Source of the DNA: Stutzerimonas stutzeri
GTDB lineage: Bacteria > Pseudomonadota > Gammaproteobacteria > Pseudomonadales > Pseudomonadaceae
Direction: 5' to 3'
Length of the DNA stretch: 64,000 nt
Assembly: GCF_019090095.1 (NCBI RefSeq)
Contig: NZ_JAGQFP010000001.1
Location: forward strand, 496,001-560,000
Under the pieces are notes generated by a model that ran no database searches, had not been told where the DNA came from, and worked only from the letters and a program-made list of their open reading frames with translations. This document shows, one piece after another, positions 26,686-60,868 of this stretch. The position numbers and the translations under genes are program-made. How positions within the stretch are numbered: position 1 is the stretch's first letter; each line of letters opens with the position of its first letter.

Positions 26686-26789
26686 TATTTAGGGTAACGA
26701 TCAATATAATAACAACTGTTGCGTAAAGTTCTGTGTAGCAGTACAGTGCCCGCAAATAACAGCTGAACCCTGGGCCAGGAGTGCGGTGT

Positions 26790-28154
26790 ATGAGTCGTGG
26801 AAGTGAATCGGCCAGCGCAATGACAGGGTCGCTGCGCTTTCGGAGAACCGGCGGCTGGGTTGACCGCCCAGCTGATTTGCAGCCCGAACTGGAAGGTCAT
26901 GTCAGTGCAGATGTGATCGTGGTTGGGGCCGGATTTGCCGGTCTGTCTACGGCGCTTGAGCTCACTGCCCGCGGCGCGAGGGTCGTGCTGCTAGAGCAGG
27001 AATTTGGCGGCTTCGGTGCAAGTGGACGTAACGCCGGTTATCTACTTGGCAGCATGGGGATCGAATTCGAGCTCTTCGTCAAGCGCGTCGGTTTTGAACA
27101 CGCTAGGAAGTTCGTCAGCTACTACGACGAGGCGGTTTGCTACGTGGAGCGAAGGCTGACCGAGTTGGGGATAGATTGCGACTACAACCCTTCTGGCGTC
27201 ATCAGGGCTGTCGTACATCCTTCGCAGGAAAAGTGGCTGCGTCGAAGCATGGAGCTTGGTCTTAAGCTGGGATCCGTTACAAGATTCGTGAACTCAGCCG
27301 AGATGCGTAGGCGTGGGATTCCTCCGGCGTTTCTGTTTGGATGCGAGCAACGCGGCGGCACGCTGAATCCCGGCAAATACGTGAGCGGACTACGCCGCGC
27401 GGCACTCCAGGCGGGGGTGAGGCTGTACGAGAGAACTCCGCTTCTTTCTTATAAAGAGGGGTCGGTCGTCACGTGCAAGACCGCACGCGGCAGTGCAAGC
27501 GCACCACTCATGGTTCTGGCGACCAACGCTTACACGCCACAGCTGGGGCTGCTGCGCGACAAGGTTGCTCCGCTACGGGTCTCCGCGATCGAAACGGAAC
27601 CGCTCTCCCAGACGCAACTGGCATCGCTGGGCTGGCAGGGTCGGGAAGGGATCATCACGCCGCATCTGACCATGGAAAGCCACCGCCTGACTGCACACAA
27701 CACCATGGTTTTGACTGTTAAGAAATTGAACTACGTCTACGGCTCGAAGACCCCTAACGTGCCGGATCACGGTGCCTACGACGCTTTAGCAAAGACGCTA
27801 CGCGAGCGATACCCCTCTCTCCAAGGCCTGGGTATCCAGCATTGCTGGAGCGGATACGTCAGCGTGGCGTACGACGCGCTGCCTGTGGTTGGCGCAACCG
27901 GGGCGCAGCAAAACATTCTCTATGTGTCCGGTTGCTCAGGGCATGGTCTCGCCACCCATTCGTTTGTGGGGCAACTGCTTGCCGAGAAAATGCATGGCGA
28001 CGAAACACCACTCTTGGATGCTTTGTGCCACAAGACGCCTTCGACGTTACCTGAGCCGTTCCAATGGTGTGCTCTGAAGGCCACCTTCGCAGCGATTAAA
28101 CAGTATGACGATTGGACGAACCGCAAGGCGCGTAAGACCGCAACCGCGTACTAA
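26790..28154 (+). CDS. FAD-dependent amine/amino-acid oxidoreductase (DAO family, PuuB-like)
   Basis: 454 residues. FAD-binding VIVVGAGFAGLSTALELTARG is near residue 40 and FGGFGASGRNAGYLLGSMG near residue 70, the pattern of gamma-glutamylputrescine oxidase and related D-amino-acid-oxidase-fold proteins. The C-terminal VSGCSGHGLATHSFVGQLLAE closes the FAD site. Family reaction: oxidation of a primary or secondary amine to an imine or aldehyde. Start choice: ATG 26790 with AGGAG 8 bases before; the GTG at 26781 overlaps that site. It stands alone between a TetR gene and a membrane protein gene. Confidence 0.8.
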   Translation: MSRGSESASAMTGSLRFRRTGGWVDRPADLQPELEGHVSADVIVVGAGFAGLSTALELTARGARVVLLEQEFGGFGASGRNAGYLLGSMGIEFELFVKRVGFEHARKFVSYYDEAVCYVERRLTELGIDCDYNPSGVIRAVVHPSQEKWLRRSMELGLKLGSVTRFVNSAEMRRRGIPPAFLFGCEQRGGTLNPGKYVSGLRRAALQAGVRLYERTPLLSYKEGSVVTCKTARGSASAPLMVLATNAYTPQLGLLRDKVAPLRVSAIETEPLSQTQLASLGWQGREGIITPHLTMESHRLTAHNTMVLTVKKLNYVYGSKTPNVPDHGAYDALAKTLRERYPSLQGLGIQHCWSGYVSVAYDALPVVGATGAQQNILYVSGCSGHGLATHSFVGQLLAEKMHGDETPLLDALCHKTPSTLPEPFQWCALKATFAAIKQYDDWTNRKARKTATAY

Positions 28155-46731: not shown

Positions 46732-47571
46732 TTAGAACGCTTTACCGGTCAGGTAGAAGTTCTCGTAGCAGAAGTTGGTGGCGGCGATGTAGCCCTCGGC
46801 GCTACCGCAGTCGAAACGCTGCCCCTTGAACTTGTACGCCAGTACGCAACCGTCCTGCGCTTGGCGCATCAGGGCGTCGGTGATCTGGATCTCGCCGCCT
46901 TTACCTGGTTCGGTCTGCTCGATCAGGTTGAAGATGTCCGGCGTCAGGATATAGCGACCGATGATCGCCAGGTTCGACGGCGCATCTTCCGGCTTCGGTT
47001 TTTCCACCATGTGGCTGACCCGGAAGATGTCGTCCCGGATCATCTCGCCGGCGATCACACCGTACTTGCTGGTTTCTTCCGGCGGTACTTCCTGGATCGC
47101 CACGATCGAGCAGCGGAACTGGTTGTACAGCTTGACCATCTGCGCCAGGACCGGATCGCCATTGAGGTTGATGCAAAGGTCGTCCGCCAGCACCACAGCG
47201 AAGGGTTCGTCACCGATCAGCGGGCGACCGCTGAGAATGGCATGGCCCAAGCCCTTCATTTCGACCTGGCGGGTATAAGAAAAGCTGCACTCGTCGATCA
47301 GCTTGCGAATGCCAACCAGGTACTTTTCCTTGTCGGTGTTGCGAATCTGATGCTCGAGCTCATAGCTGATGTCGAAGTGGTCTTCCAGCGAGCGCTTGCC
47401 GCGACCGGTTACGATCGAAATCTGATTCAACCCGGCCGACAGCGCCTCCTCGACCCCGTACTGAATCAGGGGCTTGTTCACTACCGGCAGCATTTCCTTC
47501 GGCATGGCCTTGGTGGCAGGGAGGAAACGCGTGCCATATCCGGCCGCAGGGAAAAGGCATTTCTTGATCAT
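46732..47571 (-). CDS. galU: UTP-glucose-1-phosphate uridylyltransferase
   Basis: 279 residues from ATG 47571, with AAGGA 6 bases before. Nucleotidyltransferase motif KCLFPAAGYGTRFLPATKAMPKEM at the start, substrate motifs VEMKGLGHAIL and VVLADDL, GRYILTPDIFNLI, and FDCGSAEGYIAATNF at the end. Makes UDP-glucose for lipopolysaccharide and exopolysaccharide. Length is typical of Pseudomonas GalU. Confidence 0.93.
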   Translation of the reverse strand: MIKKCLFPAAGYGTRFLPATKAMPKEMLPVVNKPLIQYGVEEALSAGLNQISIVTGRGKRSLEDHFDISYELEHQIRNTDKEKYLVGIRKLIDECSFSYTRQVEMKGLGHAILSGRPLIGDEPFAVVLADDLCINLNGDPVLAQMVKLYNQFRCSIVAIQEVPPEETSKYGVIAGEMIRDDIFRVSHMVEKPKPEDAPSNLAIIGRYILTPDIFNLIEQTEPGKGGEIQITDALMRQAQDGCVLAYKFKGQRFDCGSAEGYIAATNFCYENFYLTGKAF

Positions 47572-47928
47572 GTGAGTCCTTGAAGAGGAAGGTTCCAGTT
47601 GATGCACTGCGCCTGGATCGGTCAGCAGTCATACCTGCATGTACCGCCGACAGCGGCTGACTAGAGGCTACGACCATCGAAACGACGCGGGGTTCGGCGG
47701 CTATGGATGCTAATTCTGCCTACCGCTTCGTCCGACCGAAGGTCATTGACATGGCCTGGCGCATAGGGTGATCCGGTGCACGAAAATTGCCAAGTGGCTG
47801 CACACTGAAATGAAGCCGATTTCGGTCGAACTGGCCCCTCTCTCGACGGCTTCGCCTGCGGCCTGGTGTCGCAAGCCGGCGCACTGATGGCTGACGGCCA
47901 AAGAAGCGCCCAGTACAGGCCTGCACGC
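47572..47928. other. Intergenic region upstream of galU
   Basis: No gene is visible. It should contain the galU promoter on the minus strand; I see no clear consensus. Confidence 0.45.
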
Positions 47929-47950
47929 TTTACTGACCCAGATCAGTAAA
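47929..47950. promoter_or_regulatory. Palindrome resembling an Anr/Dnr (FNR-type) site
   Basis: TTTACTGA-N6-TCAGTAAA is a perfect 8-bp inverted repeat. Its centre, CTGAC-CCAG-ATCAG (47933-47946), matches 7 of 10 bases of the FNR-family consensus TTGAT-N4-ATCAA. About 250 bases upstream of the haem chemoreceptor gene. Confidence 0.45.
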
Positions 47951-48195
47951 ACCGCAGAAAAATTTCGTTTCGTCGCCTGCCATACCGCTCTTCCGGACAG
48001 GAGCGACTAGGATGTCGCCGGTCCATTGGTGGCATTGCGCCTTCATGGCGCCAAAACAGCAAAACCTTGTCAAGACAAGGGATATACGGCCGATAAGCCG
48101 AGGCGAAAGAAGCAGCTGGCAATCAGCACCCCGCGATGGTCCACAAGGCCATGGGTTGGCTTCGCGTTCGCTGGCAGCAACAGCTAAGGAACCCG

Positions 48196-49818
48196 ATGAA
48201 CACCACCTCTCCCGCTCGACAAATGTCCGTCCAGTCGAAGATCAACCTGGCTTTGCTGGTGGTGTTCGCCCTGGTTCTGGCCGCCTCCCTCCTGCACTCG
48301 GCGGACTCGGAAAAGGACCTCGTGCTACAGGTCGTCGAGCAGCAGACCAAGGACACCGCCGACTCCTATTTCGACAGCATCAACACCATGATGCTCACCG
48401 GGACCATGGCCCAGCGCGAGGTGTTGCGCGACAAGCTGCTGGCTCGCCCTGGCGTCATCGATGCCCGCATCGTACGCGGCGAGCCGGTCACCAAGGTCTT
48501 CGGCCCTGGCCTCGCCCATGAGGCACCGGTCGACGAGAAAGACCGCGCCGCGCTGGAAGGCAAATCGACAATGGAGGTGAGTGACGGCAAGAACGGCCGC
48601 ATTCTCACCGTGATCAACCCCATCCTCGCCCACCAGGATTACCGTGGCACCAACTGCCTGTCGTGCCATCAGGTACCCGAAAATACGGTGATGGGCGCGG
48701 TGCGGATCAGTTATGACCTGTCCGCACTCGATGGGGAGGTCAACCGTAACGTGATGACCTCGGCCGGCATTCAGCTGGCACTGTTGCTGATCGGTCTGGT
48801 GGTGATGGGCTACATCATTCGCCGGGTAATCATCAACCGCATCAACGACATGCGGCACACCATGGAGGCGATGACCCAGGATGAGGATCTGAGCCGCATC
48901 GTCGCCGTTCATGCCGAGGACGAAGTGGGCGCCATGGGCCATGCGTTCAACCACATGATCGGCAAGTTCCGCCACAGTCTCGAGGCGGTGGCCAAGGTGA
49001 CTCACCAGCTCGGCGAAGTATCGGATCGGGTTTCCAGCGTCGCCGAGAAGACCCATTCGGCCGTGCTCGCTCAGCGCAGCGAAACCGACATGGTGGCCTC
49101 GGCCATGAACGAGATGAGCGCAACCGTGCAGGAAGTCGCACAGCACGCCAGCCAGACCGCTGCCGCCTCCAGCGGCGCCGATGAACAATCGAAAGCCGGC
49201 GTCACCCTGGCGACCGAAGCCCTGGACGGCATCGACGGGTTGATCCGCGAAATCGAGCAAGCGGCGCAGGTAATCAAGCAGGTCGAGACCGACGCGACAT
49301 CCATCGGCATGGTCCTCGGCGTCATCAACGGCATCGCCGAGCAGACGAACCTGCTGGCCCTCAACGCGGCCATCGAAGCCGCCCGCGCCGGCGAGCAGGG
49401 CCGTGGCTTTGCGGTGGTCGCCGACGAGGTCCGGACACTCGCGTCGCGGACGCAGCAATCGACCGGTGATATCCAGGCGACCATCGAACAGCTGCAGCAT
49501 GGCGTGCGCAATGCGGTGAAGGTCATGCAAGGCGCCCGGGAGCGCGCCAATGCCGGATCGACCTGTGTTGCCAAAGCCGCGCAGAGCCTCAACGGCATCG
49601 CCGGAGAAGTCGGCACCATCAACGATATGAACATGCAGATCGCCACGGCCGCCGAGGAGCAAAGCGCCGTCGCCGAAGAGATCAACCGCAACATCACCAC
49701 CATCAGCAACATCGCCGACACCACGGCTGCCGATGCACAGCAGACATCGCAGATCAGCGACGAGCTCGTGCACCTGGCCACGGAGCTCAATCGGCTGGTT
49801 GGACAGTTCCGCCTCTGA
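48196..49818 (+). CDS. Methyl-accepting chemotaxis protein with c-type haem motif in its sensor
   Basis: 540 residues from ATG 48196 (AAGGA 5 bases before; an upstream ATG at 48136 lacks one). TM1 (about 17-37), periplasmic sensor (about 38-190), TM2 (about 196-218), HAMP, and the signalling domain with the conserved tip [20 protein letters not shown] and [13 protein letters not shown]. The sensor contains C154-LS-C157-H158 ([13 protein letters not shown]), a c-type haem attachment motif in the periplasm where such attachment can occur. This is the Tll0287-like/DUF3365 type of haem sensor. Probably directs movement according to redox state, oxygen or a gas such as NO (inference). No pentapeptide for CheR tethering at the C-terminus (ends LVGQFRL). 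Confidence 0.88.
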
Positions 49819-49827
49819 ACCATCCGA

Positions 49828-49852
49828 AGCCGGGCGTTATCGAGGCCCGGCT
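49828..49852 (+). terminator. Hairpin after the chemoreceptor gene
   Basis: AGCCGGGC / GCCCGGCT, 8-bp perfect stem with a 9-base loop, 10 bases after the stop. No long T-run. Confidence 0.55.
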
Positions 49853-49891
49853 GTCGCCTGGCCTCGGTCGCTCGCGCCGACTGTCCCGAAC

Positions 49892-49905
49892 TTGATCTGG
49901 GACAG
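49892..49905. promoter_or_regulatory. Candidate Anr box of hemN
   Basis: TTGAT-CTGG-GACAG: the left half is perfect, the right half keeps two or three of five bases of ATCAA. About 105 bases upstream of hemN, which is Anr/FNR-controlled in relatives. Confidence 0.35.
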
Positions 49906-50007
49906 CCGACTCCATCGTTCGAATCAGGGATAATCGCGCCACGATGTCGCAGGCAGCCGACGGCACCCCGTCCAGCCAACCCGCCCAACAACCCAGGTGA
50001 ACCCCAC

Positions 50008-51396
50008 ATGGACCAAACGCCGAGCTTTAACCGCGCCCTGGTCGAGAAATACGACCGTCCCGGTCCTCGCTATACCTCCTACCCGACCGCGCCGCAGTTC
50101 CACCAGGCCTTCGCCATGGACGATTACCGCAGCGCCGCGCAAGCCACTAACGAAGCCGCTTCGCCCAAGCCACTGTCGGTCTACATCCATATCCCGTTCT
50201 GCAAGAGCCTTTGTTACTACTGCGCCTGCAACAAGATCATCACCCACAAGACCGACCGCGCCGTCGAATACCTCGACTACCTGAAGCGCGAGATCAAGAT
50301 GCAGGCTGCGCTGTTCGACCGTTCGCGCAAGCTGACGCAGCTGCACCTCGGCGGCGGTACGCCGACCTACCTCAGCAGCGAGCAGCTGGCCGACCTGATG
50401 GCCGCGCTGCACGAGGCGTTCAACATGGACGACAGCGATAACCATGAGTTCTCGCTGGAAGTCGACCCGCGTACCGTCACGCCCGAGCAGATCCATCAGC
50501 TGCGCGCGCTGGGTTTCAATCGCCTCAGCTTCGGCGTGCAGGATTTCGACGAGCAGGTCCAGATTGCGGTGAACCGCATCCAGACCGAAGAGCAGACGCG
50601 CGACCTGGTCCAGGCGGCGCGCGATGCCCGGTTCAAGTCGATCAGCGTCGATCTGATCTACGGCCTGCCGCTGCAAACGGTGGAGAGTTTCAACGTCACC
50701 CTGGACAAGATCATCGACATCCGCCCTGATCGCATCGCCGCGTACAGCTATGCGCATCTGCCGGATCTGGTGCGCGCTCAGAAGCTGATCCGCCCTGAGG
50801 ACATGCCGCCGCCGGAGCGCAAGCTGGAACTGCTGGAGCTGACCATCCGGAAGCTGACCGAGGCCGGCTACATCTATATCGGCATGGACCATTTCTCGCT
50901 GCCCGACGACGAGTTGGCCCTGGCGCGCGCCAACGGCACGCTGCAGCGTAACTTCCAGGGTTATTCCACCCACGCCGACTGCGATCTGATCGGCCTTGGC
51001 ATCTCCTCCATCGGCAAGGTCGGCGACAGCTACAGCCAGAACGTGAAGGAGCTGTCGCAGTACTACGCTCGCCTGAACGAGGGCCTGCTGCCGGTGCACC
51101 GGGGCTACAAGCTCAGCGAGGACGACCGCTTGCGCCGCGACGTGATCATCTCGCTGATGTGTCATGGGCGCATCGATTTCAGTGAGATCGAACAGCGCTC
51201 CGGCATCGACTTCCGTGACTATTTCGCCGATTCGCTGGCCAAGCTGGACGAGCATGTCGCCGATGGTCTGGTGGAGATCACCGACGATGCCGTGCTCTTG
51301 CTGCCCCAGGGGCATTTGATGATGCGCAACGTCGCCATGGCCTTCGATGCCTACCTCGGCGGCGAGCAGCGCGGTCGCTTCTCCCGCACCGTCTGA
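50008..51396 (+). CDS. hemN: Oxygen-independent coproporphyrinogen III dehydrogenase
   Basis: 462 residues of the radical-SAM family. The substrate segment YDRPGPRYTSYPTAPQF is at the start and the cluster/SAM motif gives C65, C69, C72 and C74 (CKSLCYYCAC), the CxxxCxxCxC of genuine HemN; LHLGGGTPTYLSSEQL and SVDLIYGLP follow. Reaction: decarboxylation of coproporphyrinogen III to protoporphyrinogen IX without oxygen. The presence of C74 and full C-terminal domain separates it from HemW. A candidate Anr site lies upstream, consistent with anaerobic haem synthesis. Confidence 0.93.
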   Translation: MDQTPSFNRALVEKYDRPGPRYTSYPTAPQFHQAFAMDDYRSAAQATNEAASPKPLSVYIHIPFCKSLCYYCACNKIITHKTDRAVEYLDYLKREIKMQAALFDRSRKLTQLHLGGGTPTYLSSEQLADLMAALHEAFNMDDSDNHEFSLEVDPRTVTPEQIHQLRALGFNRLSFGVQDFDEQVQIAVNRIQTEEQTRDLVQAARDARFKSISVDLIYGLPLQTVESFNVTLDKIIDIRPDRIAAYSYAHLPDLVRAQKLIRPEDMPPPERKLELLELTIRKLTEAGYIYIGMDHFSLPDDELALARANGTLQRNFQGYSTHADCDLIGLGISSIGKVGDSYSQNVKELSQYYARLNEGLLPVHRGYKLSEDDRLRRDVIISLMCHGRIDFSEIEQRSGIDFRDYFADSLAKLDEHVADGLVEITDDAVLLLPQGHLMMRNVAMAFDAYLGGEQRGRFSRTV

Positions 51397-51405
51397 CGAC
51401 CTGAT

Positions 51406-51426
51406 GCGCCCGGTTTGGCCGGGCGC
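51406..51426 (+). terminator. Hairpin after hemN
   Basis: GCGCCCGG-TTTGG-CCGGGCGC, perfect 8-bp stem, 9 bases after the stop codon, followed by TCT. Confidence 0.6.
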
Positions 51427-51508
51427 GTCTCGCTACGGGCATTCTTATTCCCTCTTCCCGTCCGGCTGCCGTGCTCTGCATAGCGCAAAACCGCTGATCG
51501 TCTCCCCG

Positions 51509-51543
51509 TTGCCAAATCCCGCAACAACTGTATAAATACACAG
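51509..51543 (+). promoter_or_regulatory. Sigma70 promoter overlapped by a perfect LexA box
   Basis: -35 TTGCCA (51509-51514), 16-base spacer, -10 TATAAA (51531-51536). The LexA box CTGTATAAATACACAG (51528-51543) matches CTG-N10-CAG in full with the preferred CTGT-N8-ACAG and AT-rich centre, and covers the -10. The FAN1 gene starts 20-45 bases downstream. Confidence 0.85.
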
Positions 51544-51563
51544 CCAAACGGGCAGTCTCGCCC

Positions 51564-53231
51564 GTGCATGACCGAACCGGACGTTCGATGCGCCAGGCCC
51601 TGGAAAATCCCTTCTACTACCTAGAGAACTTTCGACAGGTACTTGCCTGGATCGGTGAGCGCCATGGCGACCTGCTGGTCGACCAGGAGCGCGCGTTTCT
51701 GGATCGTTTCAACGACGTCCCGCAAGCCTCGCAAGCGCTGCTGGTTCGCATGGTGATGCGCAAGGGCACCTTGTTCCGTGCCAGCAAGTTGCGTTATGCC
51801 GAGATCGGCTGTCCGCTGGAAGCTGCCACCGCCCTGATCGATCAGGGCTGGATCGACGCCGACCCGACGCTGGATCTGGTTCAGCTGTTCGCCCTGCTCA
51901 ATAAAGACGAGCTGATCCAGATATTTGGCGCCGCAGCGGGCCGCAGCCAGCGCAAAGCCGATCTGTTACAGGCGTTGCTGGCCGAGCAAACCCAGCCCCG
52001 GTCGTTCGGCAACTGGTGTGAGGCACTCGGCGAACGTGCGTTCGGGCTGAACATCGGCGAGTTCTGTGACCGGCTACGGCTGATGTTCTTCGGCAACATC
52101 CATCAGGACTGGACCGAGTTCGTGCTCGCCGACCTGGGCATCTTTCGCTATGAGCAGGTGAGCTTCTCGCCAGCGTCTCGCGCGTTTCAAAGCCGTGAAG
52201 ACGTCAACGCCTATTTGCACCTGCACCGTTGCCGCGAACGTTTCGAGGCAGGTGAGGCGCTGGACGAGGTCGTGGCCGATATTCCTCGCCTGCCCTACGC
52301 CAACGAGTGGCTGGAGCATCGCCGCGGCAAGTTGCTGCTGAGCATTGGCCGCCAGTGCGAACGTATTGGCGACCTGAGCCAGGCGCTGCGTCTGCACGCG
52401 GCCAACGGTTATCCCGGCGCGCGCGAACGGGCGATCAGAGTGCTCGAACGTTGCGATCAACCCGAAGCCGCGTTGCGTCTGGCGAACGAGGCGCATGCCG
52501 CTCCGGAAAGCGAACATGAAGCTCAGCAGTTGCAGCGCATTCTGCCGCGGCTGCGTCGTGCGCTCGGCGAGCCCGTGGTACGTCGCAGCGCTGTGTCCGA
52601 AGCCGAACGCATCGACCTTGTCATCGACCGACAGCCTGGTTTGAGCGTTGAACAAGCCGTGCGGGAGCATCTGTCGCGCAGCGAGGCGCCGGTCTACTAC
52701 GTCGAAAATGCCTTGATCAATTCGCTCCTGGGTCTGCTGTGCTGGGATGCGATCTTCGCGCCGCTGCCGGGCGCGTTCTTCCATCCGTTCCACGCGGCAC
52801 CGGCGGACCTGGCAAGGCCGGACTTCTATGCCCGTCGCGCCGGGCTGTTCGATGAATGCCTGGCCAAGCTGGGCACCGATGAATACCGCGAATGCATTCG
52901 TCGGGTGTTCCGCGAGAAGTTCGGCATTCAATCGCAGTTCGTCAGCTGGGGGCTACTCGACGAGCAACTGCTCGAAGACGCACTGTCTTGCGTGCCCTCC
53001 GAGCACCTGCGCGTGTGTTTTCAGCGCATCCTGCGAGACGTACCGAACCACCGCAGCGGGTTACCAGACCTGATTCAGTTCTGGCCTGGCGAGCGGCGCT
53101 ACCGGCTGATCGAAGTGAAGGGCCCCGGCGATCGTCTTCAGGATAACCAGAAGCGCTGGATAGACTTCGCTCTGCGCCACGGCATACCCATCGCCGTCTG
53201 CTACGTGCAATGGACCGAGGACTTCCCTTGA
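51564..53231 (+). CDS. FAN1-type structure-specific nuclease (VRR-NUC domain)
   Basis: 555 residues (ATG 51564; ATG 51588, MRQALENPFYYLENF, is equally plausible). N-terminal NPFYYLENFRQVLAWIGERH and a SAP-like helical part, a TPR-like middle region (about 230-330), and the C-terminal VRR-NUC nuclease: HRSGLPDLIQFWPGERRYRLIEVKGPGDRLQDNQ, with the catalytic Asp of PD and the ExK of EVK, plus Gln/Asn of DNQ. Bacterial FAN1 (characterised in P. aeruginosa) cuts flaps and unhooks interstrand crosslinks. Downstream XPD-like helicase is translationally coupled. LexA box in the promoter indicates SOS induction. Confidence 0.9.
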   Translation: MHDRTGRSMRQALENPFYYLENFRQVLAWIGERHGDLLVDQERAFLDRFNDVPQASQALLVRMVMRKGTLFRASKLRYAEIGCPLEAATALIDQGWIDADPTLDLVQLFALLNKDELIQIFGAAAGRSQRKADLLQALLAEQTQPRSFGNWCEALGERAFGLNIGEFCDRLRLMFFGNIHQDWTEFVLADLGIFRYEQVSFSPASRAFQSREDVNAYLHLHRCRERFEAGEALDEVVADIPRLPYANEWLEHRRGKLLLSIGRQCERIGDLSQALRLHAANGYPGARERAIRVLERCDQPEAALRLANEAHAAPESEHEAQQLQRILPRLRRALGEPVVRRSAVSEAERIDLVIDRQPGLSVEQAVREHLSRSEAPVYYVENALINSLLGLLCWDAIFAPLPGAFFHPFHAAPADLARPDFYARRAGLFDECLAKLGTDEYRECIRRVFREKFGIQSQFVSWGLLDEQLLEDALSCVPSEHLRVCFQRILRDVPNHRSGLPDLIQFWPGERRYRLIEVKGPGDRLQDNQKRWIDFALRHGIPIAVCYVQWTEDFP

Positions 53232-55483
53232 ACTATCGGGTCGCAGTCCGCGCCTTGTGCGAATTCACTGCCAAAGAAGGGGATCTGGATCTCCGCTTCA
53301 CGCCCGCACCCACTGCGCTGGAAGGCATGGCTGGCCATGCCACCGTGACGGCACGCCGGGCGGAAGATTACCAGCGCGAGGTGACGCTCGAAGGCCAGTA
53401 CCGTGAGCTGCTGGTCCGTGGCCGTGCGGATGGTTACGACCCGGGGCAGAATCGGCTGGAAGAGATCAAGACCCATCGCGGCGATCTTTCGCGGCAGCCA
53501 GCCAATCACCGTCAATTGCACTGGGCCCAGGCGAAGATCTACGGTGCGCTGCTTTGCGCGTCACGCGGACTGGGGTCGCTGAACGTCGCCTTGGTGTATT
53601 TCGATGTGGTCACCCAGAAGGAAACGGTGCTGGCCGAGGCGTTCAACGCTGCCACCCTGCAAGCGTTCTTTGAAGCTCAGTGCCAGCGCTTCATTGCGTG
53701 GGCCGAGCAGGAACTGGCGCATCGGCACGCTCGCGATCAGGCACTGACGACGCTGAAATTCCCCTATGGTGAGTTTCGACGGGGTCAGAGGCAGCTGGCC
53801 GAAGCCGTATACAAGGCCGCCTGCACCGGAACCCACCTCATGGCGCAAGCGCCGACTGGCATCGGCAAGACGCTCGCTACCCTGTTCCCGCAACTTAAGG
53901 CCTTTCCAGGTCAGCAACTGGACAAACTGTTCTTCCTCGCGGCGAAGACCTCCGGTAGACAACTGGCGTTGGATGCGCTGGCGAGCCTGACGACAGATGC
54001 GACGCCGCTGCGGGTGCTGGAGCTGACCGCGCGGGATAAGGCCTGCGAGCATCCGGACAAGGCCTGTCACGGCGAATCCTGCCCTCTCGCTCGGGGCTTT
54101 TACGATCGGCTGCCGGCAGCGCGCGCGGAAGCGATCACCCGCCCGGTGCTGGATCGGGCAGCGCTACGCGAAGTAGCGCTGGCGCACGAGGTTTGTCCTT
54201 ATTACCTCAACCAGGAACTTGCCCGTTGGGTTGATGTGGTAGTCGGTGACTACAACTATTACTTCGATCTGAGCGCCCTGCTCTACAGCCTGACGCTGGC
54301 CAACCAGTGGCGGGTCAGCGTGCTGGTAGACGAGGCGCACAATCTGCTGGAGCGCGGTCGGAGTATGTATACCGCCGAGCTTGATCTCAGGAATTTCAAG
54401 AGTTTAAGGAAGATATCTCCAAACAACGTAAAGAAGCATATCGAACGAATTTTGCGCTGCTGGGGCGAATTGCACGGCCCTCAGACCGCCAGTTATCAGG
54501 TGCAGCCGGAACTGCCCCACAAGCTCATCGGTGCGTTGCAGCAAGCCATCAGCGCCATCACCGATCACTTGACGGAGCACCCAGCTGGCGTCGACCCGTC
54601 ACTGCTGAATGCGTACTTCGACGCGATGCATTTCTGTCGGTTGGCGGAACTGTTCGGAACCCATTCGCTATTCGATTGCACGCTGCTACCGCAGCGCGCA
54701 TCCCTCGGCCGAAGCTCGGTCATCTGTATACGCAACGTATTGCCGGCCCCCTTTCTCGGCCCGCGCATGCTCGAAGCACGGTCCTGTGTGCTGTTCTCTG
54801 CCACGCTCAGCCCCAGGCAGTTCTACGCCGACACGCTGGGGCTGCCGCGCAATCAGGTCTGGATCGATGTCGATTCGCCCTTCCGGGCCGAGCAGCTGGA
54901 AGTTCGCCTGGCACGACACATCTCCACGCGCTATCAGGACCGCGCCGCCTCGCTGGATACGATCGTCGATCTGCTTGCGCAGCAGTATCACCAACGCCCC
55001 GGTAACTACCTCGCGTTCTTCAGCAGTTTCGAGTACCTGCAGCAAGTGACCACTCTGCTAGCGACCAAGTATCCGGCGCTGCCCTTCTGGGAACAGACTC
55101 GCGGGATGCATGAAGCCGCTCGTAGCGACTTCCTTGCACGCTTCACCGGCGAGAGCCGCGGCATTGGTTTCGCCGTGTTAGGTGGCGCTTTTTCAGAGGG
55201 CATCGATCTACCCGGTGATCGGCTGATTGGTGCCTTCATCGCGACCCTGGGTTTGCCCCAGGTCAACTCGATCAACGAGCAGATGAAGGCCCGGATGGAT
55301 CAGCTGTTTGGAACCGGTTACGACTACACCTACCTTTACCCCGGTTTGCAGAAGGTGGTCCAGGCGGCAGGCCGGGTGATCCGGACCACCGATGATCAGG
55401 GCATAGTCCACCTCATGGATGACCGCTTCGCGCGGCCACAGGTCAGATCTCTCTTGCCCAGCTGGTGGGGCGAGGCGCTCTGA
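53228..55483 (+). CDS. XPD/DinG-type iron-sulphur DNA helicase
   Basis: About 751 residues. TTG 53228 is chosen: it overlaps the FAN1 stop (TTGA) and has GAGG 7 bases upstream; an ATG at 53210 would add six residues. An N-terminal PD-(D/E)xK-like nuclease-fold part (about 1-170, GRADGYDPGQNRLEEIKTHRGDL) precedes the SF2 helicase: Walker A APTGIGKTLATLFP (about 208), four Cys for an FeS cluster (ACEHPDKACHGESCPLA...CPYYLN), DEAH in VLVDEAHNLLERG, and motifs V/VI GGAFSEGIDLPGDRL and QAAGRVIRT. Likely unwinds the substrate for the FAN1 nuclease in crosslink repair (inference from coupling). Confidence 0.88.
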   Translation: MNYRVAVRALCEFTAKEGDLDLRFTPAPTALEGMAGHATVTARRAEDYQREVTLEGQYRELLVRGRADGYDPGQNRLEEIKTHRGDLSRQPANHRQLHWAQAKIYGALLCASRGLGSLNVALVYFDVVTQKETVLAEAFNAATLQAFFEAQCQRFIAWAEQELAHRHARDQALTTLKFPYGEFRRGQRQLAEAVYKAACTGTHLMAQAPTGIGKTLATLFPQLKAFPGQQLDKLFFLAAKTSGRQLALDALASLTTDATPLRVLELTARDKACEHPDKACHGESCPLARGFYDRLPAARAEAITRPVLDRAALREVALAHEVCPYYLNQELARWVDVVVGDYNYYFDLSALLYSLTLANQWRVSVLVDEAHNLLERGRSMYTAELDLRNFKSLRKISPNNVKKHIERILRCWGELHGPQTASYQVQPELPHKLIGALQQAISAITDHLTEHPAGVDPSLLNAYFDAMHFCRLAELFGTHSLFDCTLLPQRASLGRSSVICIRNVLPAPFLGPRMLEARSCVLFSATLSPRQFYADTLGLPRNQVWIDVDSPFRAEQLEVRLARHISTRYQDRAASLDTIVDLLAQQYHQRPGNYLAFFSSFEYLQQVTTLLATKYPALPFWEQTRGMHEAARSDFLARFTGESRGIGFAVLGGAFSEGIDLPGDRLIGAFIATLGLPQVNSINEQMKARMDQLFGTGYDYTYLYPGLQKVVQAAGRVIRTTDDQGIVHLMDDRFARPQVRSLLPSWWGEAL

Positions 55484-55620
55484 CTGATAGTCATCACACC
55501 TCTTGCTTGCTGACGACTCGTCGTATCGCTATCGGAGCCACTTCGGCCCATCCCCGCTGTGTGCCCAGTGCGAACAACCTAGACCTTAGTCTGACGCCTA
55601 ACAGTTCTTTACAAATTGCG

Positions 55621-55648
55621 TTGACAAGCGCCGCTCTCTGGCCATAAT
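55621..55648 (+). promoter_or_regulatory. Sigma70 promoter of the OprD-family porin
   Basis: TTGACA (55621-55626), 16-base spacer, CATAAT (55643-55648). About 140 bases before the porin start. The rest of the 304-base gap 55484-55787 shows no gene. Confidence 0.65.
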
Positions 55649-55787
55649 CCCGAATGTCGTATGACGACTGATAACAGATTTCGAGTCGCGACATGCGGTC
55701 GCCTGCCAGCGCCCGCGCTATACCCCACGTTCGCTTTCGGCCTTGCCGCGCGGGGTGGGATTACTCAAAAAAGGGAGCACAACAACA

Positions 55788-57044
55788 ATGACCCCACGCA
55801 ATCCCCTATCTGCCGCTGTATTCGCGGGCACGCTGTCGTTGGCGCTTGGCGTTCCTGCCGTCGCGCATGCGGCGGACGGCTTTGTCGAAGGCACCAAGAT
55901 CACCGTCAACGCGCGCAACTTCTACATCGGTCGCGAGTTCCGTGACGACTCGATCACTGATCGCAGCAAGGCCGAAGAATGGACCCAGAGCTTCATTCTG
56001 AACATCCAGTCCGGCTACACCCCGGGCCCGGTCGGCTTCGGTGTCGACGTGCTCGCAGGGCTTGCGGTCAAGCTCGACGGCGGCCGCGGTACCTACGGCA
56101 CCGGCCTGCTGCCACGCCATCGCGACGGCCGCCCAGCCGATGATTTCGGTCGCCTGGGTGTCGCCGCCAAGGCCAAGTTCTCCAACACCGAGCTGAATAT
56201 CGGCGAAATGATGCCGGTACTGCCGATCCTGCGCGCCGACGATGGCCGCTCGCTGCCGCAAACCTTCGAAGGCGGCATGATCACCTCGCGCGAGATCGAT
56301 GGCCTGACCCTCCATGGTGGCCAGTTCCGTCAGAACAGTCCGCGTGACGACGCCAGCATGGAAGACATGAACTACGGCGGAGGCTTCTCCGACCGCTTCA
56401 ACTACCTCGGTGGCGAATACGCCTTCAATGACAAGCGCACGACCGTTGGTCTCTGGACCGCCGAACTGAAGGACGTCTACGAACAGCAGTACGTGCAGTT
56501 ACTGCATACCCAACCGCTGAGCGCGGATCTGGCCCTGACAGCCAACCTGGGTTACTTCCAGGGTGACGAGGACGGCAGCGCTCGGGCCGGCGAGCTGGAC
56601 AACAAGACCTACTCCGGTCTGTTCGGCCTCAAGGCGGGTGGCAACACCTTCTATGTCGGTCTGCAGAAAGTCAGCGGCGACACCGGCTGGATGCGCGTCA
56701 ACGGCACCAGTGGCGGCTCGCTGGCCAACGACAGCTTCAACAATGCCTACGACAACGCTGGCGAGCGCTCCTGGCAGCTGCGTCATGACTACAACTTCGC
56801 CGCCATGGGCGTACCGGGCCTGACCCTGATGAACCGCTACATCAGCGGCGACAACATCAAGACTGCCGGCGGCAACGACGGTGAGGAATGGGGTCGTGAA
56901 ACCGAGCTGGCCTACACCGTCCAGAGCGGACCGGCGAAGAACCTGAACATCAAGTGGCGTAACTCGAGCTTCCGCTCCGAGGTCAACACCCGTGACCTGG
57001 ATGAGAACCGCCTGATCTTCAACTACCCGATCTCCATCTTGTAA
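55788..57044 (+). CDS. OprD-family outer-membrane porin
   Basis: 418 residues from ATG 55788 (GGGAG about 10 bases before): signal peptide (AGTLSLALGVPAVAHA), then the OprD-family barrel start ITVNARNFYIGREFRDD, GLLPRHRDGRPADDFGRLGVAAKAKFSNTELNIGEMMPVLP, SREIDGLTLHGGQF, and the final strand LIFNYPISIL. Family members are substrate-specific channels for small carboxylates, amino acids or sugars acids. It has its own promoter and a perfect intrinsic terminator, so is a single-gene unit; the channelled compound is not evident. Confidence 0.88.
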   Translation: MTPRNPLSAAVFAGTLSLALGVPAVAHAADGFVEGTKITVNARNFYIGREFRDDSITDRSKAEEWTQSFILNIQSGYTPGPVGFGVDVLAGLAVKLDGGRGTYGTGLLPRHRDGRPADDFGRLGVAAKAKFSNTELNIGEMMPVLPILRADDGRSLPQTFEGGMITSREIDGLTLHGGQFRQNSPRDDASMEDMNYGGGFSDRFNYLGGEYAFNDKRTTVGLWTAELKDVYEQQYVQLLHTQPLSADLALTANLGYFQGDEDGSARAGELDNKTYSGLFGLKAGGNTFYVGLQKVSGDTGWMRVNGTSGGSLANDSFNNAYDNAGERSWQLRHDYNFAAMGVPGLTLMNRYISGDNIKTAGGNDGEEWGRETELAYTVQSGPAKNLNIKWRNSSFRSEVNTRDLDENRLIFNYPISIL

Positions 57045-57097
57045 GCGGCATCCACCCGCTGGACGCAACACTCCTCGCTCCTGTTGCGGAAACTTTT

Positions 57098-57123
57098 GCC
57101 CGTCGTCGTGACGGGCTTTTTTT
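57098..57123 (+). terminator. Rho-independent terminator of the porin gene
   Basis: GCCCGTC-GTCGT-GACGGGC followed by seven T residues. Perfect 7-bp stem. Confidence 0.9.
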
Positions 57124-57336
57124 GTCCGCTGGAACCCGCCGGCAGGAGCCAGCGCTGCGCTGAGAAGGACGAGTGTCGAGCACGGACGGATCCGGCCAGG
57201 TCCCTGAATGTGGGTGTCGCGGCGCGTGTCTCGCCCTAAACGCTTGTACCGCCTGCGACGTCGCGGTCGGTCAGTTGCAGGCGCGCCGCGAAAGAGGTGT
57301 CACCAAACGCGGACATAGGCCCGCGATCAGCGCTGG

Positions 57337-58242
57337 CTATTCCACACGGCTTATCCGGATAGCGCAGCTGGCTTGCAGGCGTTGCCCGGGTGCCAAGGTG
57401 CGCATGCCGTGGGCGCCTGGGTCGTCCAGGCAGAGGGCATTATTGGCGTGGGAAACCGGTTCTACCGCAAAGAAGCCCATCTCGGCCGGCGGCGTGAACA
57501 CCACCAGATGATCGAGCACTTCGCTGGCCTGAAGGCTCAGCTCGATACCCAGCCTTGGCCAGCGAATGGACACCGGCCCACTGCGCCCGGCGAAGCAATT
57601 GTCCAAACCCGGCGCGTGCAACGGCTTGGCCGTGGAAAAGTCCCACGGCGCCGGGATTCCGCTCAGCTGCGACGGCAGCCCTTCTGCATCGTTCTGCCAG
57701 ACCGCTTGCGCTGCGAATTGCAGGTCGCAGGCATCATGACGCATGAAGTAAGGGTGCCAACCGAGCCCGGCCGGCATCGCCCGAGTGTCGCGGTTTTCCA
57801 GGCTCAGATGCAGATCGAGCCCGTTGTCGACCAGCTCCAGGCGGTGTTCCAGATCGAAGGCAAACGGCCAATCAAGGACGCAGTCGCCGTCGGGTCGATG
57901 CGCCATCCGCAGCGTCAGGCGGCTGGCATTCTGCTCGATCAGTGTCCATGGCCGTTTCCACGCCACGCCATGGATCGGCAAGGGATGGTCTTCGGACAGA
58001 CGACGCAGCGGATAGGCGTGGCCTGCGTGTTCGAAGGCGGCGCCACCGACCCGGTTGGAAAAAGGTGCCAGCACGAAGCAGCCGGTACGCCGCACGCTGT
58101 TGGAGCCGTCCCAGGGCCGCAGCAGGTCGATACCGTCATAGCTCAGGTGGGTAATCGCCCCGCCCAGGTTCGGGCACAGAGCCAGTCGCAGCGCGCCCCG
58201 GCGCACCTCGATTTCGGACAAGTCTGGTTGGGGTTCTCCCAT
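57337..58242 (-). CDS. Aldose 1-epimerase family protein
   Basis: 301 residues of the galactose-mutarotase fold. NLGGAITHLSYDGIDLLRPW at the start, FVLAPFSNRVGGAAFEHAG (Asn-Arg of the sugar site), PIHGVAWKRPW with the His acid near residue 95, PAGLGWHPYF with the second His near 175, and EPVSHANNALC near the end. Interconverts sugar anomers; the YihR/LacX-like branch often acts with sugar-acid genes. No ribosome-site oddity; it is a single gene. Sugar specificity not evident. Confidence 0.8.
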   Translation of the reverse strand: MGEPQPDLSEIEVRRGALRLALCPNLGGAITHLSYDGIDLLRPWDGSNSVRRTGCFVLAPFSNRVGGAAFEHAGHAYPLRRLSEDHPLPIHGVAWKRPWTLIEQNASRLTLRMAHRPDGDCVLDWPFAFDLEHRLELVDNGLDLHLSLENRDTRAMPAGLGWHPYFMRHDACDLQFAAQAVWQNDAEGLPSQLSGIPAPWDFSTAKPLHAPGLDNCFAGRSGPVSIRWPRLGIELSLQASEVLDHLVVFTPPAEMGFFAVEPVSHANNALCLDDPGAHGMRTLAPGQRLQASCAIRISRVE

Positions 58243-58422
58243 TTGCCGCGCTCCTTGGGTGAGCGAGTGCCGCTCGCAGATTGGGTGAGGCCTCTCACGA
58301 CCAGAGCTTGTGACTCAGGTCATGAGCGCGCCGTGGGGGTGTCGCTCGTTAAGGTCGACGCCAGGCTTTTGGCCTGGGCCTTTGGCGACTCAGTCGCCTC
58401 GATCTGGACGCCGGGTGGGCGT
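58243..58422. other. Short intergenic region with a hairpin
   Basis: CCAGGC-TTTTG-GCCTGG at 58361-58377 between two minus-strand genes; likely the end of the upstream (2-hydroxyacid dehydrogenase) transcript. Confidence 0.4.
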
Positions 58423-59352
58423 TCAGACGGCTGTCAGCACCTCCGCGCGCTCAAGAAAGGCGTGCAGATTGGCGAACAGCAATTCTTCCATGGCCAGCCG
58501 GGTTTCCTCGGTGGCACTGCCAATGTGCGGCAGCAGGACGACGTTCGACAGATCGAAAAGCACCTGGGGCACATTGGGTTCGGTGGCGTAGACATCGAGG
58601 GCCGCGCCGCCGAGGTGACCCTTCACCAGCGCGTCGATCAGCGCGTTCTCGTCGACCACTGAGCCGCGCGAGACGTTGATCAACATGCCGCCTTTTCCAA
58701 GCGCATCGAGCACCTCGGCATTGATCAGGTGGCGTGTACTCTCCCCGCCCGGACAGGTCAGGACAAGAAAATCGCTCCAGCGCGCCAGCTCCACCAGGCT
58801 GGCCTCGTACCCGTAGGGGCTGCCCTCTACCGGACGCCGGTTGTGATAGCGGACCTGCATGTCGAAACCACTGGAACGCTTGGCCACGGTTTCACCAATG
58901 CGACCCATGCCTACGATGCCAAGGCGTTTGCCGCTGACGCGGGTGGCCAGCGGCAACCCGCCGGCCGGCCATTGGCCGCTGCGTACGAAGCGATCGGCCC
59001 GGGATATTTGCCGCGCGCAGTCAATGAGCATGCCGAAGGCAAGATCGGCCACGCAGTCATTGAGGACATCCGGGGTGTTGCTTACCGGAATGCCGCGCGC
59101 CCGGGCGGCCGTCACGTCGATGGCGTCGTAGCCCACGCCGAAACTGACGATGGCGCGAAGCCTGGGCAGTCGCTCGATCAAGGCGGCGGTACAGCCGAAA
59201 CGTCCGGATGTGACCATGATCTCGATGCGTTCAGCGTGTTGCTGAAGGAGCGTCTCGGGATCTGCATCCCAGAGTCGCAAAACCTCGTGCTCCGCAGCGA
59301 GACGTTGGTTGCATCGTTCGGTAAGCGGGCCGATTTGAAGAATGCAGGTCAC
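58423..59352 (-). CDS. D-2-hydroxyacid dehydrogenase (NAD(P)-linked)
   Basis: 309 residues from GTG 59352, which has GAGGA 6 bases away; an ATG at 59406 would add 18 residues with no ribosome site. NAD-binding GKRLGIVGMGRIGETVAKRS (about 145), substrate/catalytic Arg in LINVSRGSVVDENALIDAL, Glu in YATEPNVPQVLF and His in VVLLPHIGSATEETRLAM. The pattern is that of the glyoxylate/hydroxypyruvate reductase branch. May work with the FAD-linked 2-hydroxyacid dehydrogenase gene upstream, which oxidises such acids. Confidence 0.85.
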   Translation of the reverse strand: MTCILQIGPLTERCNQRLAAEHEVLRLWDADPETLLQQHAERIEIMVTSGRFGCTAALIERLPRLRAIVSFGVGYDAIDVTAARARGIPVSNTPDVLNDCVADLAFGMLIDCARQISRADRFVRSGQWPAGGLPLATRVSGKRLGIVGMGRIGETVAKRSSGFDMQVRYHNRRPVEGSPYGYEASLVELARWSDFLVLTCPGGESTRHLINAEVLDALGKGGMLINVSRGSVVDENALIDALVKGHLGGAALDVYATEPNVPQVLFDLSNVVLLPHIGSATEETRLAMEELLFANLHAFLERAEVLTAV

Positions 59353-59446
59353 AGGTTTTCCTCGATTGGGAGCCAAGGTAGGACGGTTCGATTCGCGGCC
59401 AGCCACCCGGCAGGAATCTCGCGTGTACGAGCGTCGGACGCTGGCT

Positions 59447-60868
59447 TCAGAGCCATTGAAAGAGCTTGCCGGGGTTCATCAGTCCTTGAGGGTCAAGTGT
59501 CGTTTTCAGGGTGCGCATCAGCTGCAGCTCGAGCGGGTCCTTGTAGTGCTGGGCAGCCTCGCGCTTGGCTTGGCCGATGCCGTGTTCGGCGCTGATGCTT
59601 CCGTGAAAGCGCGTCGTGGCGTCGTAAATTATCTGGGTGATTGCCGCCCGTTGCGCCGTAAAGGCGTCGTCGTCCGAACCGGCGGGCTTGCTGATGTTGT
59701 AATGCAGGTTGCCGTCACCGACGTGCCCATAGGCAACGATTCGCACGCCGGGGAAGTCGTCGAGCAAGCGGTTGTCTGTGGCCTGGATGAACGCGGGGAT
59801 AAGACTCACCGGCACGCTGATGTCGTGCTTCAGGCTCGGGCCTTCATGGTTCTGCGCCTCGGATATGCCTTCGCGCAGAGCCCAAAGCGCCGCAACCTGC
59901 GCCTGGTTACCCGCAAGCACCGCGTCGGTGACCCAGCCGCGCTCCAGCGCCTGGCCCATTCCGGTTTCCAGTAGTTCGTTCAGCGGCGCCTCGGGCTGCG
60001 TGTCGCTGAGCTCGATGAGTACGTACCAGGGATGAATCTGATCGAAGGGGTCGCTGCATCCGGTTACATGCCGAAGAACGAACTCCACACTTTGCCGAGA
60101 CATTAGCTCGAAACCGGTCAGGCGATCGCCGCAAAGCCCTCGCACCAGGCCGATGAGTTCGATGGCCGCCTCAGCGCTGGGCAGCGCGACCCAAGCGGTG
60201 GTGACGCTGCATACGGCCGGATACAGCTTGAGCACCGCAGCGGTAATGATGCCGAGCGTGCCTTCGGAGCCGATGAACAGATGCTTGAGGTCGTCGCCGG
60301 TGTTGTCCTTGCGTAGGCCACGCAAGCCGTTCCAGATCTGGCCGTCGGGCAATACCACTTCCAGACCCAGGGTGAGGTCGCGCATGTTGCCGTAACGCAA
60401 TACCGCAGTGCCGCCAGCGTTGGTTGCGAGATTGCCGCCAACCGTGCAGCTGCCCTGCGCGCCGAGGGAAAGAGGAAACAAGCGCCCTGCCTCGGCTGCT
60501 GCGGCCTGGAGGGTCTGCAAGATCACCCCGGCCTCGACCGTGATGGTTTCGTTGGCCGTGTCGATTTCGCGAATCCGGTTCAGGCGAGTCAGCGAGAGCA
60601 CCACCTGGGTACCGCTGTCATCGGGGATCGAACCGCCACACAGACCCGTATTGCCGCCTTGCGGCACCACGGCGATGCGCTGCTCGTGGCACAGGCGCAC
60701 CACGGCGGCCACCTCTACGGTTGTCGCCGGCCGCACGACCAGCGCCGCCTTGCCGCGGTAAGCGTTGCGCCAGTCGCTGAGGTAGCTGGCCATTCGCTCT
60801 GGGTCGCAGACGAGTCCGGCAGGGCCGACGATGGCTTCGAGCGCATGCCGCAAGTTGTGGACGTTCAT
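59447..60868 (-). CDS. FAD-linked 2-hydroxyacid dehydrogenase (D-2-hydroxyglutarate/lactate type)
   Basis: 473 residues from ATG 60868 (GGAG upstream). FAD-binding PCMH domain: VVPQGGNTGLCGGSIPD (about 78-95), LGAQGSCTVGGNLATNAGG, GNMRDLTLGLEVVLPDG and GSEGTLGIITAAVLKLYP. C-terminal domain: AYGHVGDGNLHYNISKP with metal His, SISAEHGIGQAKREA, and MRTLKTTLDPQGLMNPGKLF at the end. Family reaction: oxidation of a D-2-hydroxyacid to the oxoacid with electrons to a flavoprotein or quinone. P. stutzeri has a characterised D-2-hydroxyglutarate dehydrogenase of this type, but the exact substrate of this copy cannot be fixed here. Confidence 0.85.
   Translation of the reverse strand: MNVHNLRHALEAIVGPAGLVCDPERMASYLSDWRNAYRGKAALVVRPATTVEVAAVVRLCHEQRIAVVPQGGNTGLCGGSIPDDSGTQVVLSLTRLNRIREIDTANETITVEAGVILQTLQAAAAEAGRLFPLSLGAQGSCTVGGNLATNAGGTAVLRYGNMRDLTLGLEVVLPDGQIWNGLRGLRKDNTGDDLKHLFIGSEGTLGIITAAVLKLYPAVCSVTTAWVALPSAEAAIELIGLVRGLCGDRLTGFELMSRQSVEFVLRHVTGCSDPFDQIHPWYVLIELSDTQPEAPLNELLETGMGQALERGWVTDAVLAGNQAQVAALWALREGISEAQNHEGPSLKHDISVPVSLIPAFIQATDNRLLDDFPGVRIVAYGHVGDGNLHYNISKPAGSDDDAFTAQRAAITQIIYDATTRFHGSISAEHGIGQAKREAAQHYKDPLELQLMRTLKTTLDPQGLMNPGKLFQWL

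Follow-up and report, generated by a model that had tools for sequence, protein, structure and literature searches.

The FAN1 and helicase-nuclease locus

The 64-kb stretch of DNA analysed here (the window) is part of a genome of 4.9 Mb; among named organisms, the nearest relatives by FAN1 belong to Stutzerimonas. Our subject is a pair of forward-strand genes encoding a FAN1 nuclease (51564–53231) and an iron-sulphur helicase with an additional N-terminal nuclease domain (53228–55483), together with the predicted LexA box CTGTATAAATACACAG (51528–51543, forward strand) that lies in front of them. The FAN1 frame gives 555 residues from a GTG; the ATG at 51588, which is conserved among relatives in an alignment of the window with nine of them, is the likelier start. 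The two frames share the four bases TTGA at 53228–53231, where a previous reading of this DNA from its letters alone (the sequence-only reading) had placed an overlap. The helicase has 751 residues from that TTG, or 757 from the first ATG of its frame at 53210. The ATG is the less likely start, because the TTG is preceded by GAGGA at a spacing of 6 nucleotides and because the equivalent position is common to relatives (63 of the 72 adjacent pairs in the family described below). An overlap of four bases at the same place is found in 75 of 105 adjacent pairs, as ATGA in 44, GTGA in 17 and TTGA in 14, and this recurrence suggests that the translation of FAN1 and helicase is coupled.

The predicted promoter consists of a −35 element (TTGCCA, 51509–51514) and a −10 element (TATAAA, 51531–51536) on the forward strand, with a 16-nucleotide spacer; the latter was missed by our promoter consensus scan, which requires T at position 6. 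The predicted box overlaps the −10, in agreement with the earlier description of a perfect LexA box at this place: its CTGT and ACAG arms are perfect, and its inner bases are not fully palindromic. In the alignment of ten promoters (the window and nine relatives), the −35, the −10 and the box are retained, or nearly so, while the remaining promoter diverges.

The two proteins

The assignment of the first protein as FAN1 is borne out by three Pfam domains above cut-off (PF21315 HTH, 128 bits; PF18081 SAP, 52 bits; PF08774 VRR_NUC, 119 bits); a UBZ domain was not reported by this Pfam scan. Residues 11–553 match the structures of Pseudomonas aeruginosa FAN1 (PA1865; PDB 4r89 and 5y7g) with an E-value of 4e-196. 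By alignment to that protein, the VRR-NUC core lies at 53067–53120 on the forward strand, with PD (Asp at 53067) and EVK (Glu at 53112, Lys at 53118) identical between the two; as in the VRR-NUC family at large, these residues are presumed to be catalytic. This near full-length homologue with the same PD..EVK core has been studied as a lone nuclease within the literature searched.

The second protein carries the Pfam domains DEAD_2 and Helicase_C_2, a Walker A motif GIGKT (53858–53872, forward strand, residues 217–221) and four predicted 4Fe-4S ligands, Cys279, Cys286, Cys291 and Cys329 (54044–54196, forward strand), which are invariant in 23 sequences. Its N-terminal part (53228–53752, forward strand) is predicted by a structure model to adopt the fold of a Cas4/RecB-type PD-(D/E)XK nuclease, in which His43, Glu57, Asp74, Glu85, Lys87, Gln107 and Tyr111 (numbered from the ATG) are invariant in 23 sequences. 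The iron-sulphur helicase with an extra nuclease-fold N-terminus, as the sequence-only reading had it, is therefore what the domains, the cysteines and the predicted fold describe. The two features of the EndoDinG subgroup, namely an N-terminal PD-(D/E)XK fold with H, E, D, E and K and an XPD/DinG superfamily 2 core with a CCCC iron-sulphur site, are both present. The protein fits this described subgroup and is not an XPD orthologue, so that its former label ‘XPD-like’ stands in the broad sense only. It also lies far under the NCBIfam equivalog cut-offs of DinG (93.6 versus 598 bits) and YoaA (92.1 versus 680 bits), and so does not class as an E. coli-type DinG or YoaA. The two E. coli helicases are not known to have an N-terminal nuclease or a FAN1 partner.

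Close known systems include the EndoDinG subgroup itself (Cheng 2025, PMC11981726) and Finegoldia magna DinG (PDB 9kqh). The endonuclease activity of a Bdellovibrio EndoDinG member is reported as unpublished data in that paper, whose section on EndoDinG is silent about FAN1 and LexA and whose main text does not contain ‘FAN1’ or ‘VRR’. The subgroup has already been described; what is new, as far as we have searched, is the pairing with FAN1 and the regulation of that pair.

The box within its own genome

Within the 64 kb, CTGTATAAATACACAG is the sole match with at most three mismatches, where 0.14 were expected and 13 of 100 shuffles gave one or more. The bare pattern CTGTN8ACAG is only mildly unusual within one window (two matches versus 0.6 expected), and it is noisy, because it occurs at 21 places in the whole genome versus 15 for a reversed control pattern. 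Better discrimination comes from the genes behind the sites. Twelve box sites were examined, mostly AT-rich and including CCAG variants, with further genome matches lying outside this examination. Nine of them precede lexA, recA, recN, ruvC, imuA, a topoisomerase gene, a YebG-like gene and two radical-SAM genes (gene names assigned by eye from the translations, those of lexA and recA being confirmed), and three loci (L002, L008 and L015; G, L and f numbers are our own handles for genomes, loci and families) have no SOS gene. The lexA gene of this genome has a second box site. A matrix was built from ten SOS-gene sites, picked after their neighbour genes had been seen and excluding the FAN1 site and those of L002, L008 and L015. 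By this matrix the FAN1 box scores 23.6 bits, within the 20.5–26.8 bits of the ten source sites, and the next-best site in the window reaches 16.0 bits.

The box also matches the published P. aeruginosa LexA consensus, CTGN2TN7CAG (as quoted in a table of PMC9578287). All nine lexA promoters read have one box that ends in CCAG, and the recA box starts with CTGG in three of seven recA promoters read, for which reason we count one-arm variants as real.

The second exact CTGTN8ACAG of the window, CTGTGTAGCAGTACAG at 26731–26746, lies upstream of an open reading frame resembling an oxidoreductase dependent on flavin adenine dinucleotide (26781–28154, forward strand, named by eye) and scores only 11.8 bits by the SOS matrix.

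Conservation of the box across relatives

We searched 99 genomes of the family, taken as Pseudomonadaceae; 74 have FAN1, with one match each. In total, 118 FAN1 promoters were read, 75 from this family (those 74 and that of G501) and 43 from other families, the families and orders of searched genomes being inferred from named relatives and Burkholderia. Ten distant FAN1 matches (G144, G251, G387, G396, G407, G489, G163, G236, G282 and G394) were excluded from the promoter table. A CTG-type box by our rule is found in 69 of the 75 family promoters versus 9 of 1759 background windows of the same loci. The corresponding numbers are 21 of 75 versus 4 of 1759 for exact arms, and 56 of 75 versus 150 of 1759 when up to one arm mismatch is permitted. 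The literature consensus, sought on either strand within 130 bp, likewise recovers 69 of 75 family promoters, against a background of 106 in 3688. Outside this family, the rule box is present in all 13 FAN1 promoters of f19, f28, f31 and f98, with exact arms in eight.

Named loci give a similar picture. Among the best 80 of 129 relatives (from Stutzerimonas, Pseudomonas, Duganella and related genera), 73 have a box when a single core mismatch is allowed, and the helicase adjoins FAN1 at 72. Four named Burkholderia replicons carry the FAN1–helicase pair with the exact box CTGTACAAA[CT]GTACAG; these four are part of nine plasmid records, from which five Vibrio records were left out. P. aeruginosa itself was not identified among the genomes searched; the three FAN1 loci nearest to its own (best N-terminal match 70%, among 18 genomes) carry CTGTATAAATAGCCAG.

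A different predicted operator alongside a divergent LexA

In two families of another order (f99 and f111, seven FAN1 genomes), the only LexA matches fall under the family cut-off score. A CTG-type box is found in none of the seven FAN1 promoters; six have an exact GAAC-N4-GTTC and the seventh (G709) has GTACGCTCGTTC. Of the 1759 background windows, 7 contain GAAC-N4-GTTC; the remaining 111 FAN1 promoters all lack it. The five of seven lexA promoters that were read contain one or two GAAC-N4-GTTC each and no CTG-type box, and recA has the motif too in each of the two genomes where it was examined (L456 of G669 and L466 of G680). RecG-like and radical-SAM genes, named by eye, also lie behind such sites, and in six genomes the motif is found at 62 places versus 11 for the reversed pattern. 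Being on lexA and recA and enriched over its reverse, GAAC-N4-GTTC is taken as the SOS operator in these genomes. The LexA2-type motif GTAC-N4-GTGC and the motif GTTC-N7-GTTC have no exact near-gene match in the seven promoters without a CTG box.

The operon therefore seems, from its promoters, to follow its lineage’s own LexA code, and such tracking would be strong evidence that SOS control has been selected. Sanchez-Alberola is said to have described, in 2015, a non-canonical LexA motif in Betaproteobacteria, so GAAC-N4-GTTC may already be known as a motif; the new element, as far as we have searched, is that the FAN1 operon follows it.

Three side observations concern these sites. G615, an eighth genome tested along with the seven, has a different and ill-defined motif, and G698 has one GTAC-N3-GTGC 295 nucleotides upstream of FAN1. 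In addition, the two radical-SAM genes behind SOS-type boxes in the genome of the window (L012 and L013) have a counterpart in a divergent-LexA genome, where L463, by eye a likely relative of one of them, lies behind GAAC-N4-GTTC; a radical-SAM gene may therefore follow the LexA code as well.

The genes together and apart

The helicase directly follows FAN1 in 72 of the 75 family genomes and is adjacent to it at 105 of the 118 FAN1 loci examined. Across 398 genomes of the phylum (thresholds E ≤ 0.001 for FAN1 and E ≤ 1e-60 for the helicase), FAN1 was found in 55, the helicase in 43 and both in 36, and in 35 of these 36 FAN1 lies directly ahead of the helicase on a single strand (Fisher P ~3e-30, a value that ignores kinship). 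FAN1 occurs alone in 19 of its 55 genomes and the helicase alone in 7 of its 43. In 300 genomes of the order of G370, taken as Burkholderiales, the helicase accompanies FAN1 in 21 of 21, adjacent in 20, and occurs alone in 11.

In G370, the two genes lie on separate contigs, each with an exact box of its own (CTGTATATGCATACAG and CTGTACATCCATACAG). G376 and G445 have the helicase without FAN1 behind an exact box, and G493 behind a box with one mismatch. Conversely, eight Pseudomonas FAN1 loci (P. viridiflava, P. tremae, P. caspiana, P. maioricensis and two more species), with no helicase within ~4 kb, all have a FAN1 box in which the arms carry no more than one mismatch; when only the forward strand is scanned for the literature consensus, three of the eight match.

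In three genomes (G697, G753 and G709) the helicase matches are split into two pieces, so that insertions or breaks are possible there.

Four genomes without FAN1, from three families, encode a different protein, here called protein X, directly upstream of the helicase (L351:2199–3077, L352:2123–3082, and L379 and L384 on the reverse strand). It is of ~290–350 residues, belongs to an undescribed family and carries the motif PD[LV]FS...HE[VI]K, in which PD..HE.K is invariant. A box-like CTGTTTTTATA[CA]TCAG stands just ahead of X in G347 and G503; G516 has a weaker CTGGCTATCGATACAG upstream of X’s conserved part, and G626 has none. Protein X gave no Pfam match above cut-off and no credible PDB match, and none in NCBIfam, where two members were scanned; its nuclease nature is consequently read from the motif only. 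By that motif it may resemble MmcB of Caulobacter. MmcB is not FAN1; it is described as an SOS-regulated PD-(D/E)XK nuclease guarding against mitomycin C (PMC9578287).

Proposed function

On these grounds we propose, with a probability of roughly 0.72, that the locus is a LexA-repressed SOS module in which FAN1 and an EndoDinG-type helicase-nuclease would be produced jointly upon DNA damage and would probably act on crosslinks or branched lesions. Damage control and the coupling of the two genes, both of which the sequence-only reading had put forward, are strongly supported at the level of prediction by the conserved boxes, by the boxes on several split genes and by the operator switch. RecA-stimulated cleavage of LexA would lift the repression of the operon, FAN1 and helicase would share a transcript, and their translation would be coupled through the start/stop overlap. 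The two enzymes would probably then act one after the other on interstrand crosslinks or similar branched lesions: the helicase would travel 5′–3′ on single-stranded DNA or flaps and halt at the lesion, FAN1 would incise the flapped or gapped strand next to the crosslink, and the helicase’s own Cas4/EXO5-like domain would trim the freed strand. Translesion synthesis and recombination could take over from there. An imuA-like gene in the genome of the window also has a box.

A crosslink role for the pair is plausible, by analogy with published descriptions of the bacterial enzyme. Crosslink and flap processing is favoured on two grounds: the literature describes bacterial FAN1 as a nuclease that unhooks interstrand crosslinks (Gwon 2014; Jin 2018; both as cited second-hand), and protein X recalls MmcB. 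The parallel with the eukaryotic crosslink pathway, drawn in the sequence-only reading, holds for the parts and not for a demonstrated pathway: human FAN1, FANCJ/XPD and EXO5 offer a FAN1 nuclease, an iron-sulphur XPD-family helicase and an EXO5-like nuclease fold, and the bacterial proteins are parts of the same kinds. More tentatively still, we consider it somewhat less than an even bet that bacteria possess a crosslink-repair machine dedicated to this task and switched by DNA damage, in which EndoDinG is the motor and docks an exchangeable PD-(D/E)XK partner (FAN1 in most lineages, X in others), under SOS control selected strongly enough for the operator to have been re-wired from CTGT-N8-ACAG to GAAC-N4-GTTC when LexA changed.

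Several observations weigh against the proposed LexA-repressed module. First, the box rule was fixed after a first look at the sites and admits some CTGG/CCAG forms; by arms alone just the 21 of 75 family promoters given above are exact, six of the 75 fail the rule, and the literature consensus finds 10 of 13 in f19, f28, f31 and f98 versus 13 of 13 by the rule. The genomes are moreover related, so that all counts are of non-independent events. Second, the rule box is present in only one of eight FAN1 promoters of f11, the FAN1–helicase pair of f10, f15 and f119 lacks a clear box, the matches in f12 (two of three) are not AT-rich, and in f16, f24, f33 and f34 none of the nine FAN1 genes that lack a neighbouring helicase has a box. 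Third, of the 13 genomes with the helicase and no FAN1, a fair box is present in five, a weak variant in two (G516 and G595) and no box in six (G148, G329, G612, G626, G700 and G728), which weakens the general claim for the box. Fourth, hydrogen peroxide represses PA1865, a gene that is not classed under LexA by the authors of PMC12796719.

Beside these stand variant promoters. The other seven f11 promoters (L332, L356, L357 and L364–L367) share ATGGAT[AG][AC]ATGA[AC]CAG, which resembles, only suggestively, that family’s odd lexA sites, such as CTGTATGCATGAACAC in G426. At L106 and L107 (G044 and G056), where FAN1 has neither box nor adjacent helicase, CTGGATAGATACAG or CCGGATAGATACAG is found upstream, box-like with a spacer two bases short. 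G107 (L144/L145) has, besides an intact FAN1 elsewhere in the genome, another copy that is interrupted by a stop codon; this copy is preceded by an exact box, CTGTACAAGAATACAG, and followed by a helicase.

How P. aeruginosa responds to damage otherwise speaks for the proposed module. PA1866 we take to be the helicase, from its number only. In the expression results of PMC12796719, PA1865 and PA1866 are raised by UV-C (short-wave ultraviolet), PA1865 also by ciprofloxacin, and the two genes stand outside the LexA, Prt and Alp regulons listed there.

Alternative explanations

The best surviving alternative, which we regard as unlikely but still to be taken seriously, is that the pair is SOS-controlled and not crosslink-specific, handling 5′ flaps and stalled or transcription-blocked forks with FAN1 as a flap nuclease. 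E. coli has DinG and YoaA and is not known to have FAN1, which speaks against this alternative, as does the unhooking activity ascribed to bacterial FAN1. In its favour, DinG and YoaA are likewise XPD-family iron-sulphur helicases under LexA, with roles at forks and R-loops (PMC11981726), and the published inducers found for PA1865 in PMC12796719 are the two named above and not crosslinkers.

Next, and improbable, is that the box is real and just one of the two genes matters, its partner being an operon passenger. Each gene does occur without the other, in the proportions given above; however, each has a box of its own in several of the genomes that separate them, and the helicase adjoins FAN1 at 105 of the 118 loci noted above.

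An anti-phage or CRISPR-associated system, with the helicase as a relative of type IV CasDinG, is very improbable. It draws on a strong match of the helicase to the PADLOC typeIV_DinG model (410 bits), and we rejected this reading because the model match stands by itself: no linked cas genes were seen by eye among the open reading frames at 47000–60000. In a scan of viral contigs, helicase relatives were found in 3 of 81 stretches, each starting at a contig edge, so that they carry no information on a phage origin.

That the box is a chance match and the operon constitutive is next to negligible: the modest excess of the bare pattern in window and genome leaves room for it, but it is rejected on promoter-specific conservation in most of the family, on the score by the genome’s own SOS matrix and on the switch to GAAC-N4-GTTC with the LexA type.

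Significance and a further observation

Bacterial FAN1 has so far served as a structural model for human FAN1, and no bacterial pathway or partner for it was found in the literature searched; an earlier report of LexA control may exist outside it. A conserved, overlapping pair with LexA-type boxes would supply both a partner and an inducer. It might also answer why damage induces PA1865 and PA1866 although neither is in the listed P. aeruginosa regulon, and it opens to direct testing a crosslink route that may be independent of UvrABC. Furthermore, the operator switch offers a clean natural test that a gene’s SOS membership is itself selected.

Finally, elsewhere in the genome (G000:C1:1413836–1415294), eight near-identical CTGTTTWGCKAGCCAG sites lie on the reverse strand ~180 nucleotides apart (once 360), a spacing that suggests a long repeat gene or array.

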